DNA from: an uncultured Verrucomicrobia subdivision 3 bacterium
GTDB taxonomy: Bacteria > Verrucomicrobiota > Verrucomicrobiia > Limisphaerales > UBA11358
DNA length: 46,364 nt
Reading direction: 5' to 3'
Assembly (NCBI GenBank): GCA_903865745.1
Contig: CAIPKV010000008.1
Coordinates: forward strand, 1-46,364
In this document: positions 6,022 through 40,352 of the stretch, one piece after another
Layout of the letters: the number at the start of each line of letters is the position of its first letter
Position numbering within the stretch: position 1 is the stretch's first letter
Program-made: the position numbers and the translations under genes
The notes under the pieces: generated by a model
Database searches by the model: none
What the model was told of the DNA's origin: nothing
What the model saw: the letters and a program-made list of their open reading frames with translations, nothing else

Positions 6022-6452
6022 GCACCCCTTTGTCCGTCCTCGATTCAAGTTCTGCCAAGGGTTGGCAAAGAATCGCCAAGGGGCGTACCACTTTTAATAA
6101 GTAATGCACCCCATTGCCGAAGGTTTGAGAAATCTTTCAAAAGGGGTGACGTGGTTTCCGAGCGGGGCGAGAAGTTTTTCAAAAGGGGTGACGTAGTTTT
6201 GGAAAGGGGTGCACCCCTTTATCCGGGGGGTGCAACCCCAGCCAAAGGGGGGGCACCCCTTGAGCAAAGGTTCGCACCCCTTTACCAAAGAGTGGCCCCT
6301 CTTGAGCAATGGGGTGCACCCCTTGCAGAAAGGTTCGCCCCCCTTGGGCAATATTTGCCACCCCTTTTGAAAAACTTCTCACTACTTTTGTTAAGGGGGA
6401 TGCCCCTTTTGGTAAATAACGACGTTTTTTGCCAAAAAACCGCATTTTTCCA
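6022..6452 (+). repeat. Repeat array 1: about 20 palindromic units, period exactly 21 bp
   Basis: Units start at 6022 and then every 21 bp (6043, 6064, 6085 up to 6442) without a single register slip. The consensus is GCACCCCTTTTG followed by CCAAAGGGGT, so each unit is a degenerate palindrome. ACCCCTTT can pair with AAAGGGGT inside the unit, and GGGGTGCACCCC forms a second dyad at unit borders. Units at 6211, 6253, 6274 and 6316 are closest to consensus; those before 6106 and after 6379 are decayed. The array ends ~78 bp before the start of the 6530 gene. Because 21 is a multiple of three, heptad-like reading frames stay open through it, but none has a convincing start. It is not a CRISPR array: the units are too short and no cas gene is near. 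Confidence 0.85.
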
Positions 6453-6529
6453 GCCGGCAACCCCGGTTGCTCCCTTTAGTCCGGTACAACTCGGTTAACC
6501 AACGCATAGCACAAAGCAGCAATATTATT

Positions 6530-7237
6530 ATGAAACGAAACACTTATTTCCCCATCCGCATCGGGGATCAAATCATCTGGGTCGGTAATTTCGGCGATAA
6601 GCTCACCCATTACGCCGCCGAGCTGGGGCTAAAGGCCGAGGTGCTCGCCGCCATCCTGGCGGATTGCGCGTGGCTCATCTATTGCCTGCAAAAATGGCAG
6701 CCTGCCGTCCGCATCTGGGCGCAGAGCAGCACCACCGTCATCACGGAGATGGAGACTGGCACCGACACCGACGTGCAAGTGCTGCCCTTGTTCATCCCGC
6801 CCCCGTTGCCCACCGGCGTGGTCGCCGTGTTGCCCGGCGTGCTCACCCGCCTGTTCGCCTTCATTCAGATTCTCAAGCGAAACCCCAAGTGCATCGAGTC
6901 CATCAGCATTGACCTCGGCATCATTGGCAGCGCGCAGATCGGGCCGGACCTGACCAGCATCCAACCGGTGTTCACCCTCAGCATCGTGGGTGGGCAAGTG
7001 GTGCTGCATTCCGGTTTTGGTGGCTATGCCGCCTATCTGGATGCCATTGAATGGCAGGTAAACCGCAACGACGGCAAGGGCAGCGTGCCGCTGGTCGTGG
7101 CCATCACGCCCAACTACACGGACCTGCAACCCTTCCCCGTGGCGAGCACGGTCTGGACTTATAGCGCCATCTTTCTGTTGAACAATGTGCGCGTGGGCGT
7201 CTGGAGCCAGTCCGTCAGCATCGCCGTGCAGGCGTGA
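6530..7237 (+). CDS. Unrecognised array-associated protein 1 (helical N-terminus, FN3-like C-terminus)
   Basis: 235 residues from ATG 6530, preceded by the AT-rich sequence GCAATATTATT. There is no signal peptide. Residues ~1-75 look helical (GDQIIWVGNFGDKLTHYAAELGL, then AILADCAWLIYCLQKW). A proline-rich link (PLFIPPPLPTGVV) follows at ~85-100, then a hydrophobic helix (TRLFAFIQILK). The C-terminal ~95 residues look like beta strands of an FN3-type domain and end VGVWSQSVSIAVQA. Proteins of this layout occur as hypothetical proteins in Verrucomicrobiota; no function is known to me. Two more window genes (29287-29904 and 37299-37931) share the layout and the W-S-x-x-V-S ending. Each has a 21-bp-period array upstream. 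Confidence 0.75.
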   Translation: MKRNTYFPIRIGDQIIWVGNFGDKLTHYAAELGLKAEVLAAILADCAWLIYCLQKWQPAVRIWAQSSTTVITEMETGTDTDVQVLPLFIPPPLPTGVVAVLPGVLTRLFAFIQILKRNPKCIESISIDLGIIGSAQIGPDLTSIQPVFTLSIVGGQVVLHSGFGGYAAYLDAIEWQVNRNDGKGSVPLVVAITPNYTDLQPFPVASTVWTYSAIFLLNNVRVGVWSQSVSIAVQA

Positions 7238-7444: not shown

Positions 7445-7598
7445 GCCCTCACCCTAACCCTCTCCCCCAGGAGAGGGAACGAGCGAAGACCCGTCCGTTG
7501 AATTCATTGACGGTCTGGCTAATACCGTCGCGGCCATTTTCTAAAGCGCGGGAACCGGTTCACCCTCTCCTCGGGGGAGAGGGCCGGGGTGAGGGCGA
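7445..7598. repeat. REP-like inverted pair A
   Basis: Two oppositely oriented copies of a ~35-nt element at 7445-7478 and 7563-7598. Each contains CCCTCACC, a spacer, and the small palindrome CCCTCTCC...GGAGAGGG. The same element occurs as inverted pairs at 37105-37259 and 38448-38550. It resembles BIME-type REP pairs spread by REP-associated transposases. The low-complexity frames across it are artefacts. Confidence 0.8.
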
Positions 7599-29286: not shown

Positions 29287-29904
29287 CTAGGTGCTCATGT
29301 GTTGGACGGGTTCGCAAAACGGGCCGCATTTGTTATTTGCAACCATCGTGCAGGCGCGCAGCGAATGCATGGAACCCGACGTGAGATTGATTAAGTTCAC
29401 ATCGTTGGGATCGGTGAACGTGTGGATGGTAACGGTGCCGGTGGACATGAGTGTGTCTTCGACCAAATAACACCGGGCGTTGGGATCTAACAATAGCTCC
29501 AGTTTGAGCCCGCCGGGGCCGGAGTTCGTGACGCTAAGGATGGCGGTGAGGCCCGGCTCGACGTTGGTGCGGGTGGAGGTGGCGAGCAAATAGCCAAACG
29601 CGGGTACGATGGCAGTATTTTTGGCGGTGTTGGCGGCATTCTCGACATCGTTGGCGAAGGTGTCCAGCAAGGTGAGGAGTTCGGCGAGCAGGACGTTCTT
29701 TTTGATGGTGTCTTCCGCCGTGCCCGTCTTGCAGACGACGATGGCATCAAAGGCGGCCTGTGACTTGGCCTTCAAAATTGCCGCCGTGACCGTGGAGACG
29801 ACGGTATAGGTAGCGGTGAGGATCAGGCCGGCGACGGTGAACCCGCGGGCGACTAAAGGTTGTTCGGCCAGGTTGCGGTAATCGTGAGCGATGCGAATGG
29901 GCAT
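29287..29904 (-). CDS. Unrecognised array-associated protein 2 (helical N-terminus, FN3-like C-terminus)
   Basis: 205 residues from ATG 29904, preceded on its strand by the AT-rich AAAAATATTAAA. There is no clear signal peptide. Residues ~20-115 are helical and Ala/Thr-rich (VSTVTAAILKAKSQAAFDAIVVCKTG, then LLAELLTLLDTFANDVENAANTAKN). The C-terminal ~85 residues look like an FN3-type beta domain (TAILSVTNSGPGGLKLELL). The end CEPVQHMST matches DPVSHMST of array-associated gene 3, and the last ~90 nt of the two genes are visibly alike. Array 2 lies ~200 bp upstream. Function unknown. Confidence 0.72.
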   Translation of the reverse strand: MPIRIAHDYRNLAEQPLVARGFTVAGLILTATYTVVSTVTAAILKAKSQAAFDAIVVCKTGTAEDTIKKNVLLAELLTLLDTFANDVENAANTAKNTAIVPAFGYLLATSTRTNVEPGLTAILSVTNSGPGGLKLELLLDPNARCYLVEDTLMSTGTVTIHTFTDPNDVNLINLTSGSMHSLRACTMVANNKCGPFCEPVQHMST

Positions 29905-30092
29905 TTTAATATTTTTAGTTGAATGTTTTAGCCGTCCAGCAGGCCCTTTGGCTACACCTACGACCTTTGACCACTGGGGAACCTAGCAGGCGCCGCTGCC
30001 TTAGCAATGGATTAAATGCGATTTCTTTTCACTTCCCCACCAACTGAAATGTGCCGCCCACGGTCAAAAGCCCGTAAATGCCCCGTTGCCCT

Positions 30093-30349
30093 GCTACAAA
30101 CGGGTATTCGCTTGGGGCATCCGAAGGTTCACTTGGGGCGCGCGAGGTTTCACTTGGCGTAAGTGAACCTTCAGATGCCCCAAGTGAACCTTCGGAAATG
30201 GCAAGTGAACTCTCGACTGGGGCAAGTAAACGCCCGCTCGCCCCAAGTGAACCTTAGGATGCCCCAAGTAAATCCTCGGAAGTGGTAAGTGAACCCTGGA
30301 ATGCCCCAAGTGAACTCCCGGATGCCCCAACCTAAGATTCGGTTGTGCT
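30093..30349 (-). repeat. Repeat array 2: 12 units of 21 bp with an orientation switch
   Basis: Nine units in one orientation start with AAGTGAAC or a near match at 30161, 30182, 30203, 30224, 30245, 30266, 30287, 30308 and 30329, exactly 21 bp apart. Three units in the opposite orientation end with CACTT or a near match (CGCTT at 30113) at 30113, 30134 and 30155, also 21 bp apart. The two halves meet at 30149-30167, where TTCACTT-GGCGT-AAGTGAA forms a 7-bp hairpin. The remainder of each unit varies around ACCTTCGGATGCCCC. The array is ~200 bp upstream of the minus-strand gene 29287-29904. Stretches 29905-30092 and 30350-30445 show nothing else recognised. Confidence 0.87.
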
Positions 30350-30445
30350 CCTGCCGGAGGCGGCCTCCAGCCCAGAACTGGCCACCACCCTGCGGCTTGA
30401 CGATTGCGCGCTGGGGGGCATGCCAACCCTACAGGCCGAAAATAG

Positions 30446-30559: not shown

Positions 30560-31222
30560 ATGAAGTTAAATCAAATCATTACGGGTATCGCCCTGGCCGC
30601 CGGCCTGCTGGCTCTCGCCCCCGTCCAGTCCCAAGCCCAAGGCTCCCCAACAATCGGTCTGCCGATCATTTCGTTCAACGTCAAGGTAGTCGGCACCTAC
30701 TTGAATTATTCGAAAACCAACAGCCTCAAGGTTGTGAAATTCACTTATTCGAACAAAGACATCCTGAAGTATGCAGAGGCCCCCAAAGGTTCCAAACTGG
30801 CATTCTTGAGCAGCTACGGTACGCAGTTGGTGATTATCCACAACGGTGCCATTTGGAAAAACCTCACCACCAACGGGGTCATGTATATCAACCCATCGGA
30901 GACTTCATCTAAAGAAATTCTTGGCAAGAATGGTTACAAATATATTTCGACCGGCACCATTGAAATTGGCTACGGCAGCAACGGTAATGACACGTCAATT
31001 GGTGACAATGAATACGGATTCGATATTACTGGTTCCTATTTGGCTCTCGGTGTTTTCTCCAGTCCCGTCAATAAAAACTACACTGTCGAAACGCTTAAGC
31101 TAGCCACCTCAGGCCTGTCTGGCCAGGCCGTAGACAATGACGTTGAAACTGGTGACAGCGGATATATGACGGCGGTCGGCTCGGCGGACGCCAGCGGCAG
31201 TGTCAAGCAGGTTGGTCCGTAA
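30560..31222 (+). CDS. Secreted tandem paralogue 1 (unknown function)
   Basis: 220 residues from ATG 30560. A signal peptide (MKLNQIITGIALAAGLLALAP to ~residue 26, VQSQA) is followed by a probably beta-rich mature part. Shared family blocks: VKVVGTYL, KVVKFTYSNKDIL, IWKNLTTNGVMYI, TIEIGYGSNGND and DNEYGFDITGSYL. There are no cysteines in the mature chain and no sorting signal at the C-terminus. No known domain was recognised. It is the first of three tandem paralogues (30560, 31506, 32226). An upstream in-frame start at 30446 is not needed. It ends before a strong hairpin that recurs after copy 3. Confidence 0.75.
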   Translation: MKLNQIITGIALAAGLLALAPVQSQAQGSPTIGLPIISFNVKVVGTYLNYSKTNSLKVVKFTYSNKDILKYAEAPKGSKLAFLSSYGTQLVIIHNGAIWKNLTTNGVMYINPSETSSKEILGKNGYKYISTGTIEIGYGSNGNDTSIGDNEYGFDITGSYLALGVFSSPVNKNYTVETLKLATSGLSGQAVDNDVETGDSGYMTAVGSADASGSVKQVGP

Positions 31223-31238
31223 TATTTTAGAGTCTTTC

Positions 31239-31282
31239 AAACCGGTTCAGAATGGCTTAAAGCTGTTTTGAACCGGTTTTTT
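31239..31282 (+). terminator. Terminator after secreted paralogue 1 (duplicated sequence)
   Basis: AAACCGGTTCA (31239-31249) pairs with TGAACCGGTTT (31269-31279), followed by a T run. Stem and loop are almost identical to the element at 32912-32956 after copy 3, which shows that the terminator was duplicated with the genes. Confidence 0.88.
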
Positions 31283-31386
31283 CTTTGTCTGGCTGGAGCG
31301 ATCCGGAGCCGATTTCTCTAAGGACGTCCGCCAGCGACTTGCGAAAGACGAGCTTTTGACAAAAGAGACTTAAATTAGGGAAAGCA

Positions 31387-31415
31387 TTGACAGAAAAGAG
31401 CATTTCTCATAAAAA
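31387..31415 (+). promoter_or_regulatory. Putative sigma70-type promoter for secreted paralogues 2 and 3
   Basis: TTGACA at 31387-31392, 17 nt spacer, TAAAAA at 31410-31415. Another TTGACA lies at 31356. The leader element at 31432 follows 16 nt later. Confidence 0.4.
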
Positions 31416-31431
31416 TAACCCAGTAGTTGGA

Positions 31432-31468
31432 TTTAGGGTTCCCGACCAGCGGGGAGCAATCGACTAAA
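31432..31468 (+). promoter_or_regulatory. Structured 5' leader element, copy 2
   Basis: TTTAG (31432-31436) and CTAAA (31464-31468) form the outer stem, with a GTTCCC/GGGGAGC hairpin inside. Compared with copy 1 the inner stem bases differ but pairing is kept, apart from one bulge. Flanking sequence (ACTAAAAA, CCGCA, ACATCACA) is shared. Confidence 0.5.
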
Positions 31469-31505
31469 AACAAACCGCAGACATCACATACACACAAGGA
31501 AAACT

Positions 31506-32174
31506 ATGAAGTTAAATCAAATCATTACGGGTATCGCCCTAGTCGCCGGCCTGTTGGCTTTGGCCCCGTCCCAAGCGCACGCCGTAGCCGTTGCCACCAA
31601 CACAGTGATTGTTCCCATCAACATCAAAGCGGTTGGCTCCTATGTGAGCACCAATAATACGGCGAAGATTGTGAATTTCTCCTATTCCAACAAAGATATC
31701 TTGAAGAATGCGGGCGCACCCAAAGGTGCCAAGCTGGCCTTTATACCGTCTGAGTTTGGTTGGGGAGGGGACGTTGTGATTATCTCGGGCAAGGCCGTTT
31801 GGGAAGATCTCACCACCAATGGCGTGCTTTATATTAGCTTTTCGGAGCCCTATTCTTACAATGAGGTTACCGGTAAGAATGGCGGGGGCAAATTTGCCGC
31901 CAACGGCACCGTTGAAATCGCCTATGGCAGCAATGGCAATGATAACACGTATGATAACAATGAATACGGGTTTGACGTCTATGGTTCTTATCTTTGGAGC
32001 GGAACTTATTCTGCTCCGAAAAATGGCTACATCAACGTCTCGGAAAATATTAGTACGGCCGGCGTTTCCGGTGATCTATATGACTTCGACCTGAACTTCA
32101 TCAATGACGGTTATTTTCCCGCTTCGGGCTCAGTGTCTGGCAGTGGCAGCGGCAAGGTTGTACCTGTGATCTAA
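31506..32174 (+). CDS. Secreted tandem paralogue 2 (unknown function)
   Basis: 222 residues from ATG 31506, with AAGGAAAACT just upstream as ribosome binding site. The first residues, MKLNQIITGIALVAGLLALAP, are almost identical to paralogue 1, and the peptide ends near QAHA. The mature part repeats the family blocks: NFSYSNKDILKNAGAPKGAKLAF, VWEDLTTNGVLYI, VEIAYGSNGND and NNEYGFDVYGSYL. It has its own promoter region and structured leader. The third copy follows after 51 bp without a terminator, so copies 2 and 3 probably form one transcript. Confidence 0.75.
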   Translation: MKLNQIITGIALVAGLLALAPSQAHAVAVATNTVIVPINIKAVGSYVSTNNTAKIVNFSYSNKDILKNAGAPKGAKLAFIPSEFGWGGDVVIISGKAVWEDLTTNGVLYISFSEPYSYNEVTGKNGGGKFAANGTVEIAYGSNGNDNTYDNNEYGFDVYGSYLWSGTYSAPKNGYINVSENISTAGVSGDLYDFDLNFINDGYFPASGSVSGSGSGKVVPVI

Positions 32175-32225
32175 TTTTGGCCATCACGACTAATATAAAC
32201 TGCAACTATACCAATAAAGAAAATT

Positions 32226-32897
32226 ATGAAATTAAAACAAATCATTACGGGTTGTGCCTTGGTCGCCGGCTTGCTGGCTTTCGCGCCGGTCAAATCCCAG
32301 GCGACAGTCTATCAGAATTACTTGGTCAGCCCCTTCACCTTCAAAGTTGTTGGCACCTATGTGGGGGCCAAGAACAAGCTTCAAAAAGTCACCTTCACGA
32401 ACAAAGACGTTTTAAATTATTATTTTGGTGGGACCCCGCCCAATGGTGTTATTTTGGCGCTTTGGGATGGTGATGTAGTGATTTACAATAGATTAACGAC
32501 TTTGATTGTGGCCGACCTCACCACCGATAACGTTCTTTACGCCAACCTGAACGAGTATACTTACAATAACTATTATCAAAAGAATGGTTTTGAAAAGTAT
32601 CTCGAAAGCGGCGCCGTGGAAATTGGCTATTATAGCAACGGCAATCAAAACGCGCTTGATCTAAACGATTATGCCTTCGATGTCTATGGTACCTATACCT
32701 ACATCGGGACCGTGTCCTACCCGGTGAATGGGTATTGGAATTCGACTGAATCGTTCAAAACGTCAAACCTGTCCGGTGAGGCGTACGATGGTGGTTATAT
32801 CAGTTCTGGCATTGTGCAACATGCTGGCTACGACTATTTGCCCGCCACTGGCACTGCGAACTACAGCGGTGCCGGCGTGTTGTCAGCCTTCCCGTAA
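32226..32897 (+). CDS. Secreted tandem paralogue 3 (unknown function)
   Basis: 223 residues from ATG 32226. The signal peptide (MKLKQIITGCALVAGLLAFAP, cleavage near KSQA) is close to those of the other two copies, but the mature part is the most diverged. Retained blocks: VVGTYVG, KVTFTNKDVLNYY, VADLTTDNVLYANL, VEIGYYSNGNQNALDLNDYAFDVYGTY. The leader element seen before copies 1 and 2 is absent here. Aromatic residues, especially Tyr, are enriched. A secreted or outer-surface role is likely; nothing more can be said. Confidence 0.75.
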   Translation: MKLKQIITGCALVAGLLAFAPVKSQATVYQNYLVSPFTFKVVGTYVGAKNKLQKVTFTNKDVLNYYFGGTPPNGVILALWDGDVVIYNRLTTLIVADLTTDNVLYANLNEYTYNNYYQKNGFEKYLESGAVEIGYYSNGNQNALDLNDYAFDVYGTYTYIGTVSYPVNGYWNSTESFKTSNLSGEAYDGGYISSGIVQHAGYDYLPATGTANYSGAGVLSAFP

Positions 32898-37104: not shown

Positions 37105-37259
37105 CTCCCTCACCCCACCCTCTACCCAAGGAGAGGGCTGTCACGCCCCCGTCTTCCCGAGTAAAACCCGCGACGGGATTGAAGAGAAGGTCAACCAAAT
37201 CACCAAAACCAGTCGCAACCTTTTCCCTCTCCTCGGGGGAGAGGGCTAGGGTGAGGGCG
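37105..37259. repeat. REP-like inverted pair B
   Basis: Copies at 37105-37139 and 37225-37259 in opposite orientation, each with CCCTCACC (or its complement), a spacer and the palindrome CCCTCTCC...GGAGAGGG. The pair lies just downstream of array-associated gene 3 (minus strand) and is the same element as pairs A and C. The rest of the 36969-37298 gap shows no gene. Confidence 0.8.
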
Positions 37260-37298
37260 GACTTCTCCGATAAGACCAATCACCTCACCACCCCCGCT

Positions 37299-37931
37299 TC
37301 AGGTGCTCATGTGGCTGACGGGGTCGCTCCAGGCGCTGACTTGATTATTACCCGCGCAGGCACGCGCTTGAATGGCGCACATGGAACCCGGTTTGCGGTC
37401 GACGACGATGATGCCGAGCGTGGAGGAGAAATGACCACAACCGACGGGCGGCGCACCATCCACGCTGACGCGTAAATCATAGCCAGTCGCGCCGGGCGAA
37501 CCTTGGAGGCCGACCCCGATTTGGGTGCTGGCCGGATTGGTGAGGCTGAGGATGACCGGTGGGACAAGGACGACCGCCGCATGATGGCCGTAGTCCGCAA
37601 CGGTAAAGCCGGAGAGGAGGACGGTGGCTTCGGTGAGACCGAGTAAGGCTTGGATGTAGCCCGCTTGGGTGCGGAGGAGACTGACGAGGAACGCTTTTTT
37701 GTTGTTCTTAGCTTCGGTCGCAGCGGAGCCTTGTTGTTGCGTGGCGGTGATGGACGCTTCAAACGACAGGATGCCGGCGGTGATGCTGGCCAGCGGCACG
37801 GTGGGGTCAGCAAAGAGCACGATGTTCTTGCCCATCAAATCAACGACGCCGTTGGCAAATACGATAATATCCGCGTCATCAAATTTGGCGAAGGCGAGGG
37901 AAACGTGGATGGGAGCGATTTGGAGAGTCAT
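37299..37931 (-). CDS. Unrecognised array-associated protein 3 (helical N-terminus, FN3-like C-terminus)
   Basis: 210 residues from ATG 37931; the frame upstream to 38003 lacks support, and CAAAAATAT precedes the ATG as in module 2. There is no signal peptide. The N-terminal ~115 residues contain a helical pattern (IIVFANGVVDLMGKNIVLF, ITAGILSFEASITATQQ, KNNKKAFLVSLLRTQAGYIQALLG) that I recognise from hypothetical FN3-containing proteins. The C-terminal domain (VILSLTNPASTQIGVGLQ to AWSDPVSHMST) is FN3-like. The end is shared with gene 2 at protein and DNA level. Array 3 lies ~200 bp upstream. Function unknown. Confidence 0.75.
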   Translation of the reverse strand: MTLQIAPIHVSLAFAKFDDADIIVFANGVVDLMGKNIVLFADPTVPLASITAGILSFEASITATQQQGSAATEAKNNKKAFLVSLLRTQAGYIQALLGLTEATVLLSGFTVADYGHHAAVVLVPPVILSLTNPASTQIGVGLQGSPGATGYDLRVSVDGAPPVGCGHFSSTLGIIVVDRKPGSMCAIQARACAGNNQVSAWSDPVSHMST

Positions 37932-38131
37932 ATATTTTTGTTTGGAATTTGGCTTATCACTGACCTTGCGGCTGTTTGTCTGAAGTAGCGAGATAAATCG
38001 CACGCTCCACCTGAAAGCAGATTTACCGCGCTTAAAAAGCCCTAAGTGGATGTTAATCAGGGTGCAATGGCTGTTAAGTTGTCGGATAAATCGTCTAAAA
38101 GAGCGTCGCCGAACGAAAATAGTTTGAAATA

Positions 38132-38362
38132 ACCAGCTGGTTTGGTCATTTCACCAGCTGGTTTTACTCTTGGACCAGCTGGTTTGGAGACCGGACCAAC
38201 TGGTGTTACGACGAAACCAGCTGGTTTTGTGTCTGCACCAACTGGTTTTAGGGCTAGACCAGCTGGTTTAGCGACGACACCAGCTGGTGTCATGATAAAA
38301 CCAGCTGGTTTGGTGATGAAACCAGCTGGAGTAATGACGGAACCAGTTGGTGTTTTAAAGAA
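38132..38362. repeat. Repeat array 3: 11 units of 21 bp with core ACCAGCTGGT
   Basis: Cores start at 38132, 38153, 38174, 38195, 38216, 38237, 38258, 38279, 38300, 38321 and 38342, exactly 21 bp apart. The 10-bp core ACCAGCTGGT is a perfect palindrome, or ACCAACTGGT/ACCAGTTGGT in a few units; TTT often follows. The remaining 8-11 bp differ in every unit and show no consensus. The array is ~200 bp upstream of the minus-strand gene 37299-37931. Its units read as the heptad P-A-G-x-x-x-x on both strands simply because the core is palindromic. Confidence 0.92.
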
Positions 38363-38447
38363 AAGACCCATCCAACAGACGAATTTACCTGCTGGCGGCG
38401 CGGAAGCTGGGGCTTAAATTGGTGGGTAGCTGGGAGCGCAGGTGGTT

Positions 38448-38550
38448 CCTTCTCCTCGGGGGAGAAGGCTAGGATGAGGGCGAGCTTCGGGGACTAATTA
38501 GATGAGTGGGAAGACCGTCCTCACCCCGGCCCTCTCCTCCAAGGAGAGGG
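38448..38550. repeat. REP-like inverted pair C
   Basis: Copies at 38448-38484 and 38517-38550 in opposite orientation. They carry the same palindrome and GATGAGGG/CCTCACCC blocks as pairs A and B, here arranged tail-to-tail with a shorter 32-bp spacer. It lies ~85 bp beyond array 3, so module 3 is bracketed by pairs B and C. Confidence 0.78.
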
Positions 38551-39326: not shown

Positions 39327-40352
39327 ATGCACATGAAAACAAAATACACCCTGTTCCGGCGCAACGGAATCTATTATTCCCAAGATTCGGCGACCGGCCA
39401 GCAAAAAAGTCTGCGCACCCGCGACGAAGCCGATGCGTTGCAGCTGCTCAACGCGCGCAACGAGGCGCACCGCCAGCCGGTGCTGAACCTGCACCTGGCC
39501 CGCGCCTATCTGACCGCCAGCGATCCGGCCTTTGTGGAACGCACCTGGCAGACCGTCATGGCGCAGTTGCAAGCCCGCGGCAAGGACAGCAGCCGCGAGC
39601 GTTACGCCAGCGTGTTCAAGTCACCATCCTTTGACGGCCTGCGAAATAAAAAACTTCTGGAAACGACCGCCGATGATTTTTTCGCGGTGTTCAAGGAGAA
39701 CAAAGTTGCCATCACCTATTTTCTAAAGCGGCTGCACAACTTCGCCCTGAGCCTAGGCTGGATTGCCCTGCCGATTGTGGCGCCGTATCTCTGGCCGAAA
39801 TACGAACCCAAAGACCGGCGCGGCATCACGCTGGACGAGCATCAAAACGTCTTGGCCAAGGAAAAACAGGCGGAGTGGAAGCTGTATCTGGAACTGCTCT
39901 GGGAAACGGGTGCGGCGCAAAGCGATGCCGCCAACTTCAAAGCCGAGGACATTGACTGGCAGACGCGGACAATCTCCTACTTCCGGCAAAAGACCGGTTC
40001 GCTGGCACAGTTCACGATCAGCCAGAAACTGGAAACTGTCTTGAGCCATCTGCCGACCACCGGTCCGTTGTTCCCGAACTTGTCCCAATGGTCGGAAAGC
40101 GACCGGGCCAGCCGGTTCCGCCGCCGCTGCCACAAAGCTGGTGTGACCGGCGTGACGTTGCATTGCTACCGTTACGCGTGGGCCGAACGCGCCAAAGTGG
40201 TGGGAATGCCGGAACGGTTCGCGCAGGCGGCGCTGGGCCACAACAGCAAGGCGATTCACCGCGCCTATGCCAAGAAGGCCGTCATCATCGCGCCATCCCT
40301 TGAGGACTACGAAAAGAATGCGGCGACATTACAGCCAGCAGTGAAGGCTTGA
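39327..40352 (+). CDS. Tyrosine recombinase / phage integrase (first catalytic Arg replaced)
   Basis: 341 residues from ATG 39327; ATG 39333 is also possible. An N-terminal Arm/SAM-like part (residues ~55-150) precedes the catalytic domain. Lys222 (RQKTGS), His279 and Arg282 (LHCYRYAW), His305 (LGHNS) and the nucleophile Tyr314 (HRAYAKK) are present. The first Arg of the R-H-R-Y set, expected two residues after TG in TG-x-R, is Ala197 here (ETGAAQSDAANF). I recall similar TGxxQ/S-type recombinases in Verrucomicrobiota. Inferred role: integration of the prophage, if the enzyme is active. Confidence 0.87.
   Translation: MHMKTKYTLFRRNGIYYSQDSATGQQKSLRTRDEADALQLLNARNEAHRQPVLNLHLARAYLTASDPAFVERTWQTVMAQLQARGKDSSRERYASVFKSPSFDGLRNKKLLETTADDFFAVFKENKVAITYFLKRLHNFALSLGWIALPIVAPYLWPKYEPKDRRGITLDEHQNVLAKEKQAEWKLYLELLWETGAAQSDAANFKAEDIDWQTRTISYFRQKTGSLAQFTISQKLETVLSHLPTTGPLFPNLSQWSESDRASRFRRRCHKAGVTGVTLHCYRYAWAERAKVVGMPERFAQAALGHNSKAIHRAYAKKAVIIAPSLEDYEKNAATLQPAVKA

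Follow-up and report, generated by a model that had tools for sequence, protein, structure and literature searches.

Four described kinds of systems come closest to the repeat array considered here (array 3, Table 1). In CRISPR arrays, a conserved element alternates with variable stretches of fixed length, and the spacers are derived from invaders and unique to the array. Type III toxin-antitoxin systems (ToxIN and relatives) consist of a tandem repeat array that immediately precedes the gene of a small protein, with ToxI-type repeats longer than 21 bp and a ToxN/AbiQ-like endoribonuclease as product. Phased operator and iteron arrays, such as plasmid iterons and centromere-like arrays, consist of direct repeats about two helical turns apart near a gene, where binding of protein to the same face of the helix is plausible. 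Finally, REP and BIME palindromes, which are associated with RAYT transposases, are multi-copy palindromic repeats of intergenic DNA; REPs have been reported in a verrucomicrobium (PMC3733652).

Array 3 lies in a stretch of 46,364 nt (the window), which is the entire contig C8 of a 3.63-Mb, 87-contig genome (G000) from an uncultured bacterium of Verrucomicrobia subdivision 3. Compared with CRISPR, its variable part is about 11 bp, its spacers are inherited in order between copies, and the core varies from array to array. A preliminary description of the locus had suggested that the spacers might carry information and had proposed a search against phage; blastn of 38100-38400 against 50,697 phage records (E<=1) gave no match. 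Together with the ordered spacers shared with a copy on contig C76, this argues against CRISPR-like spacers, and the suggestion of an informational content is not supported. Compared with type III toxin-antitoxin systems, the repeat measures 21 bp, the sequence gives no sense-strand RNA signal, and the linked gene encodes a predicted helical-FN3 protein with no endoribonuclease match: no toxin family was found by Pfam or NCBIfam in the members scanned, nor by PADLOC in 16 members of the family alignment A4, and the C-terminal part has a modelled FN3 fold. Compared with REP and BIME elements, the arrays are long and phased, and the GTAG/CGTC tag is not the rule, with GTAG in at least half of the units in one of 89 arrays and CGTC in six. 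The linked proteins scanned with Pfam and NCBIfam gave no match to a Y1 (HUH) or other transposase. As in phased operator and iteron arrays, the repeats are spaced by whole helical turns; the differences are that cores vary between arrays, that a genome holds many arrays whose common features are period and symmetry, and that the binder is putative. By sequence comparison, the coding, CRISPR, REP/RAYT and sense-RNA readings of the arrays are not supported.

Array 3 and its copies

Array 3 had first been described as eleven cores at an exact spacing of 21 bp, eight of them perfect palindromes. The spacing is confirmed, with eleven 10-bp cores starting at 38132, 38153 and so on to 38342, while the count of perfect palindromes is corrected to seven, all ACCAGCTGGT; the others are ACCAGCTGGA (38321), ACCAACTGGT (38195 and 38237) and ACCAGTTGGT (38342). 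The 10-mer ACCAGCTGGT is absent from the rest of the window. At lag 21 the autocorrelation reaches 76 of 105 positions, which, with the lack of any array in block-shuffled DNA (see below), places array 3 far from chance.

Table 1. Arrays, linked genes and tail in the window.
Feature	Position	Strand	Remarks
Array 1, 21-bp	6104..6423	+	core AAGGGGTGCACCCCTT-like; dyad z 5.0
Gene downstream of array 1, 235 aa	6530..7237	+	second family branch by alignments A3, A4
Gene downstream of array 2, 205 aa	29287..29904	-	same family by alignment A2
Array 2, 21-bp	30073..30366	-	core AAGTGAACC.. and its reverse complement; dyad z 3.4
Gene downstream of array 3, 210 aa	37299..37931	-	modelled: N-terminal helices and C-terminal FN3 domain
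Tail between array 3 and gene	38032..38131	-	homologous in C76 and C61 copies
Array 3, eleven 21-bp units	38132..38362	- (strand of linked gene)	array-specific palindromic core ACCAGCTGGT; dyad z 4.7

A second copy of array 3 is present on C76, 79% identical over 325 bp with the tail beyond the array included, and lacks the gene. Its spacers are those of array 3 in the same order, minus one 21-bp unit, which contradicts the earlier view that the spacers are free. Within the array, differences between the two copies fall on 6 of the 100 core sites and on 20 of the 110 spacer sites (Fisher p = 0.011). The spacers of array 3 evolve faster than the cores and yet are clearly inherited. On C61 there is a third copy. 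The tail is common to all three, the left flank to C61 and C76, and the downstream gene to C61 and the window, the C61 homologue being 83% identical to the product of 37299-37931. The core of the C61 array is AGTACCTACT, different from that of array 3, and the 21-bp register is unchanged. Gains and losses of 21 and 42 bp were seen between copies of arrays.

Other features were noted in the window. A promoter-like match at 38077-38050 (minus strand) lies between array 3 and the gene, but two such matches were found in the region against 0.7 expected, too weak for use. A tyrosine recombinase gene at 39327-40352 (plus strand; Pfam Phage_integrase, E 1e-10) is situated about 1 kb from array 3. An interspersed CCCTCTCCTCGGGGGAGAGGG-like palindrome at 37223-37265, 38446-38488, 38530-38550 and 7556-7597, with further copies in L039, seems to be a REP-like repeat distinct from the arrays. 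At 30560-32897 (plus strand) there are three consecutive genes, two of which start with MKLNQIITGIAL (30560 and 31506) and are paralogues, and the third (32226) has the same 5' part at the DNA level.

The array class and its linked gene family

Array 3 is one of many 21-base dyad-symmetric arrays that tend to stand just upstream of genes of a small-protein family. A periodicity scan covered the window and parts of 40 further contigs, in all 640,250 bases or 18% of the genome. The threshold was passed at lag 21 in 30 places, at lag 22 in three and at lag 41 in two; lags 42, 44 and 63 appeared as multiples, and lags 7, 12, 14, 28 and 33 once each. When all sampled DNA was block-shuffled once, no lag from 7 to 63 produced an array. 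After a 7/14-bp minisatellite (L008), a 12-bp repeat and a 33-bp repeat had been set aside, 34 arrays were left in this sample, 29 at 21 bp, three at 22 and two at 41, with hardly any other period. These 34 are partly non-independent, since some groups have flanks or units in common and the ends of L037, L039 and L050 are one identical array. The core differs from group to group, and many distinct cores exist; a single protein reading ACCAGCTGGT, a core specific to its array, therefore cannot account for the whole class. With the same threshold, about 550 kb of 15 congeners contained four arrays (L060, L099, L363 and L374), of which that in L060 looks like a coding repeat. A lower threshold added a 22-bp array in L066 and, in the genome of another family, four 41/42-bp arrays (two in L069, and L087 and L088). 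A repeat of 35-39 bp in four copies spaced by 1-7 kb (3373, 4732, 12151 and 15865), was seen in L036 and is possibly a cassette-like array.

All three arrays of the window are upstream of a gene for a protein of 205-235 aa, and arrays 1 and 2 with their genes (6104-7237 and 29287-30366) are array-gene modules like that of array 3 in which the core is a different one. Alignments made from array-adjoining genes, A2 from five and A3 from three, found 19 and 12 places in the same genome. In total, 47 loci with a readable gene were fetched from this genome and its congeners, and an array was called at lag 20, 21 or 42 with a score of at least 36/63 within 700 bp upstream. Such an array precedes the gene in 38 of the 47 (A2, 17/19; A3, 21/28), a count biased by its seeds, since the family was first defined from array-adjoining genes; after removal of the eight A2/A3 seed loci the figure is 30 of 39. 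L235 and L244 (no gene call) were not counted, and nine of the twelve A3 places of the genome were left unfetched. The null maximum in a similar scan was 35, and the loci at 36 (L214 and L233) are borderline. In the 700 bp downstream, none of 46 flanks of these loci has an array. The distance from array to gene is 11-403 bp in 36 of 37 measured cases and 575 bp in the other, and the gene-linked arrays have a median length of 282 bp, about 13 units of 21 bp.

The loci missing an array are L208 (array about 0.9 kb upstream), L215 (a weak match), L222 and L241 (at contig ends), L232 (partial), and L223, L229, L237 and L240, in which repeats of 7 or 8 bp take its place. Tandem repeats of this size, replacing the 21-bp array or beside it, were seen upstream in these last four relatives and in L249, L250, L254 and L268. 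Near control genes, in returned congener loci only, arrays were found at 0/29 for GAPDH, 0/29 for metG and 3/29 for lpxB. In the sampled DNA of the genome itself, tblastn detected seven A2/A3-family genes, mostly seeds, and every one of the seven has an array in front of it. Against a module of array and gene, 27 of the 34 sampled arrays have no A2/A3-family gene near, several of them at contig ends. One of the 27, L021:17451-17712, precedes a small gene (L021:16706-17368) that has no Pfam match and was not found with A2 or A3, and whose C-terminus is FN3-like by eye; the gene family may be wider than A2/A3. Another small gene downstream of a 21-bp array was observed at L041:3559-4188.

Arrays and genes of this family are associated across phyla. 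The best 80 of 165 relatives in a GTDB genome scan with A4 came from Limisphaerales and other Verrucomicrobia, Spartobacteria, Akkermansiaceae, a Lentisphaerae genome, Zoogloea, Methylococcales and Bacteroidetes. In these named genomes, a repeat lies upstream in 66 of the 75 loci with at least 300 bp of upstream sequence, with a top lag of 21, 42 or 63 in 55 of the 75; downstream, the corresponding numbers are 8/77 and 0/77 flanks. This set overlaps that of the congeners (the L246 protein is 100% identical to the L242 protein). As L242 belongs to a congener, this identity also assigns the genus of the window to Limisphaerales. In six genomes of Zoogloea, Methylococcales and Bacteroidetes, a set overlapping the other locus sets, the upstream top lag is 21, 42 or 63 (score at least 37) in 20 of 30 matches. 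One of 24 downstream flanks in these six genomes, Zoogloea L326, has a perfect 21-bp repeat besides the upstream array, which counts against the module; so does the lack of a clear relation between array density and gene number among congeners, for which data are too few and A2-type genes uncounted. Searches of plasmids and phages with one member, and of viral contigs with A4, detected no protein of the family.

The linked protein is modelled as an N-terminal helical region followed by a C-terminal FN3 domain. AlphaFold2 models of the 37299-37931 product and of the congener protein L242 (pLDDT 85.6 and 91.8) have helices and then a beta-sandwich, which matches FN3 domains by Foldseek and VIA-align. 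By sequence, Pfam gave only a sub-threshold fn3 match in one of nine members scanned, NCBIfam only weak matches far below cut-offs, and a search of the PDB with A4 no match better than E 0.1; for the 16 A4 members, PHROGs and PADLOC both returned nothing. Two points of background count against the module: most known FN3 domains belong to extracellular proteins, and a role in DNA binding is not established for them.

Symmetry of the units, and the coding and RNA readings

Among the 22 arrays of 21 bp that are at least 150 bp long, the consensus unit is dyad-symmetric in 19 (mean z 3.6 against column-permuted controls); those without the signal are L023:1, L052 and L053. In 89 distinct gene-linked arrays the dyad has p<=0.05 in 59; Zoogloea and other proteobacterial records account for 4 of these (out of 7 arrays) and Methylococcales for 6 (out of 14). 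The remaining 30, among them 8 of the 14 from Methylococcales and the single Bacteroidetes array, have no significant dyad, which counts against the module. Aligning the 89 profiles brings out a shared but weak AT-rich dyad of 2.16 bits (permuted columns, 1.44-1.53), which lacks strand polarity (2.15-2.25 bits after random strand flips); the idea of a universal sequence centre was rejected. What is conserved is position, period and, mostly, symmetry, and not the letters. As 21 bp are two turns of B-DNA and the unit is a dyad, a symmetry axis recurs every 10.5 bp on one helix face; an A-form RNA helix would suggest a period of about 22.

A period of 21 is divisible by three, and the array could also be read as a coding repeat of seven codons, for example in the minus-strand frame 38057-38371 (104 aa, PAG heptads). 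Open heptad frames exist on both strands, and the open-frame total over the 22 arrays is 37 against 23 in the permuted null (P 0.01), an excess that mirror-symmetric units can also produce. However, substitutions between the window and C76 are distributed 7/6/7 over the codon positions (9/9/8 when a wider alignment is taken), arrays with an open frame number 17 of 22 against 14.3 expected on column permutation (P 0.135), and the frames of the gene-linked arrays are open in 23/37 in sense and 21/37 in antisense. Moreover, arrays of 22 and 41 bp exist and no Pfam match was obtained. In four other pairs of 21-bp arrays, codon positions show no lean in two (9/5/5, p 0.43; 16/15/16, p 0.98) and some in two (24/16/11, p 0.08; 14/4/8, p 0.05). 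The codon-position, open-frame and period evidence speaks against coding heptads, and their probability is regarded as very slight.

An array directly 5' of a small gene could otherwise be a structured non-coding RNA acting alongside that gene, as in type III toxin-antitoxin systems, perhaps in antisense. Folding of the arrays does surpass that of block-shuffled controls on either strand (mean z -4.0 and -3.8, the better strand being below -2 in 26/34; -8.1 and -7.8 for the window array), and they contain 152 hairpins against 52.6 expected. Folding is, however, strong on both strands, and no match in the window reached the Rfam gathering score; the toxin searches reported above for the proteins tested weigh against this reading too. 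Strand preference was evaluated in 37 of the 47 loci, nine having been left out by hand for want of a clear 21-bp array within reach and L203 (period 20) dropped for length. The sense strand has no wobble skew, with A.C in excess of G.T (98 vs 71, p 0.045), and is the more stable in 13/37 (Wilcoxon p 0.006), so that a strand-specific sense RNA is unsupported by these comparisons. The somewhat better antisense folding (p 0.006) favours an antisense RNA and counts against the module; C exceeds G on the sense strand in 30/37 gene-linked arrays, and this excess may explain it. Stem mismatches over the arrays, 100 G.T and 86 A.C, show no wobble skew array by array (dispersion p 0.30). Tested at the level of units, pairing gives a weak result (combined Z 2.8 and 0.8), with 0.507 for pairs at one and the same dyad and 0.51-0.52 for neighbours. 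Given this weak direct test, pair-by-pair compensation between arms was dropped as the cause of core conservation. The folding signal that persists under column permutation (mean z -1.5 and -1.3) may reflect only the kinship of neighbouring units. An RNA function is, on balance, unlikely.

Turnover, mobility and a proposed module

In many cases, though not in all, arrays turn over faster than the genes they precede. Two proteins that are 93% identical (L199 and L202, the latter called as a 126-aa partial) have unrelated arrays, with a score of 15 (40 unrelated pairs: mean 17.3, maximum 25), and the array score of the window/C61 pair, at 83% protein identity, is 34. Paralogues are non-uniform in this respect, a point against the module, since pairs at 85% and 77% protein identity have partly similar arrays (scores 69 and 104). 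Common flanks were also observed in L009, L010, L021 and L044, where the L009/L044 and L010/L021 pairs differ in their interior units, which is further array replacement between constant flanks.

The placement of arrays varies too. The arrays beside GAPDH and metG in this genome are missing in the 29 and 29 returned congener loci, and no empty site could be aligned after either gene. The gap upstream of lpxB is 606 bp with the array in this genome, 14-29 bp in four congeners (L177, L184, L193 and L195), and up to 1270 bp in others. In L183 and L181, arrays with other cores are situated 256 and 1065 bp upstream of lpxB; because the same upstream gene is not within reach, their site may differ from that in this genome. 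Upstream of lpxB in L170, L175 and L186, and near an array at L021:16038-16493, there are sequences that, judged by eye from a motif, read like REP-associated or IS200-type Y1 transposases.

Such placements, which are not common to the congeners tested, would suit repeats that are selfish or spread passively; the FN3 gene would then be a hitch-hiker or the factor that spreads them. The many sampled arrays without an A2/A3-family gene, the flanking parts that the window, C76 and C61 copies have in common, and the missing gene of the C76 copy are in keeping with this. A hitch-hiker would nevertheless not be expected to show so frequent an order of array upstream of gene across phyla, and the two loci tried gave no alignable empty site, the proteins tested no transposase match, and the searches of phages, plasmids and viral contigs no family member. 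Spread of this kind is not a likely explanation. Neutral minisatellites generated by hairpin-primed template switching and slippage are a still less probable one: nearly self-complementary units and the 21- and 42-bp gains and losses between copies fit such an origin, but not periods of 21, 22 and 41 in arrays whose sequences are unrelated, the frequent placement before genes of a single family in several phyla, or a core that changes more slowly than the spacer.

The preliminary description had proposed a phased protein-binding array, and this remains the best-supported kind of explanation, because periods of 21, 22 and 41 occur in unrelated arrays, the units are dyads, and a coding or sense-RNA signal is lacking. 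The product of 37299-37931 had been put forward as the putative binder, a link that gains indirect support from the finding that such arrays usually precede genes of that family. The reading favoured here, at a probability of roughly 0.42, is that array and gene together make up a chromosomal module of two parts, with the array as the upstream one. The first part would be the phased array, with a unit that is usually dyad-symmetric, and the second the downstream gene for the helical-FN3 protein. The array would act as double-stranded DNA and offer a platform of multiple sites. Along one helix face of this platform a dimeric protein would assemble, for which the product of the module itself is the most economical candidate, and this protein would control the linked gene. 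Action at the DNA level, protein binding and gene control are what we infer from the sequences. Conservation of position, period and mostly symmetry, but not of letters, agrees with double-stranded DNA serving as a platform on which a symmetric protein sits. Since the arrays of close paralogues can be unrelated, recognition would be either by spacing and symmetry or by a specificity that switches fast, with units homogenised by gains and losses of 21 bp. A stronger version is doubtful: that the helical-FN3 protein reads the array by 21-bp phasing and dyad symmetry instead of letters in a cross-phylum chromosomal module, with array sequences turning over freely while the architecture is kept, and with solo arrays as further targets of the same proteins.

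The arrays and the gene family point to an undescribed DNA-protein module; no counterpart was found in the titles and abstract beginnings of the open-access literature searched. Since its sequence is not conserved, this class of arrays is missed by homology searches and is found by a search for periodicity plus dyad symmetry. The module is present in named strains of Zoogloea and is thus testable. An array would be kept by geometry more than by sequence and tied to one uncharacterised protein family in Verrucomicrobiota, a Lentisphaerae genome, Zoogloea, Methylococcales and Bacteroidetes. If true, this would be a new kind of cis-element, and it would give a function to a widespread uncharacterised protein family.
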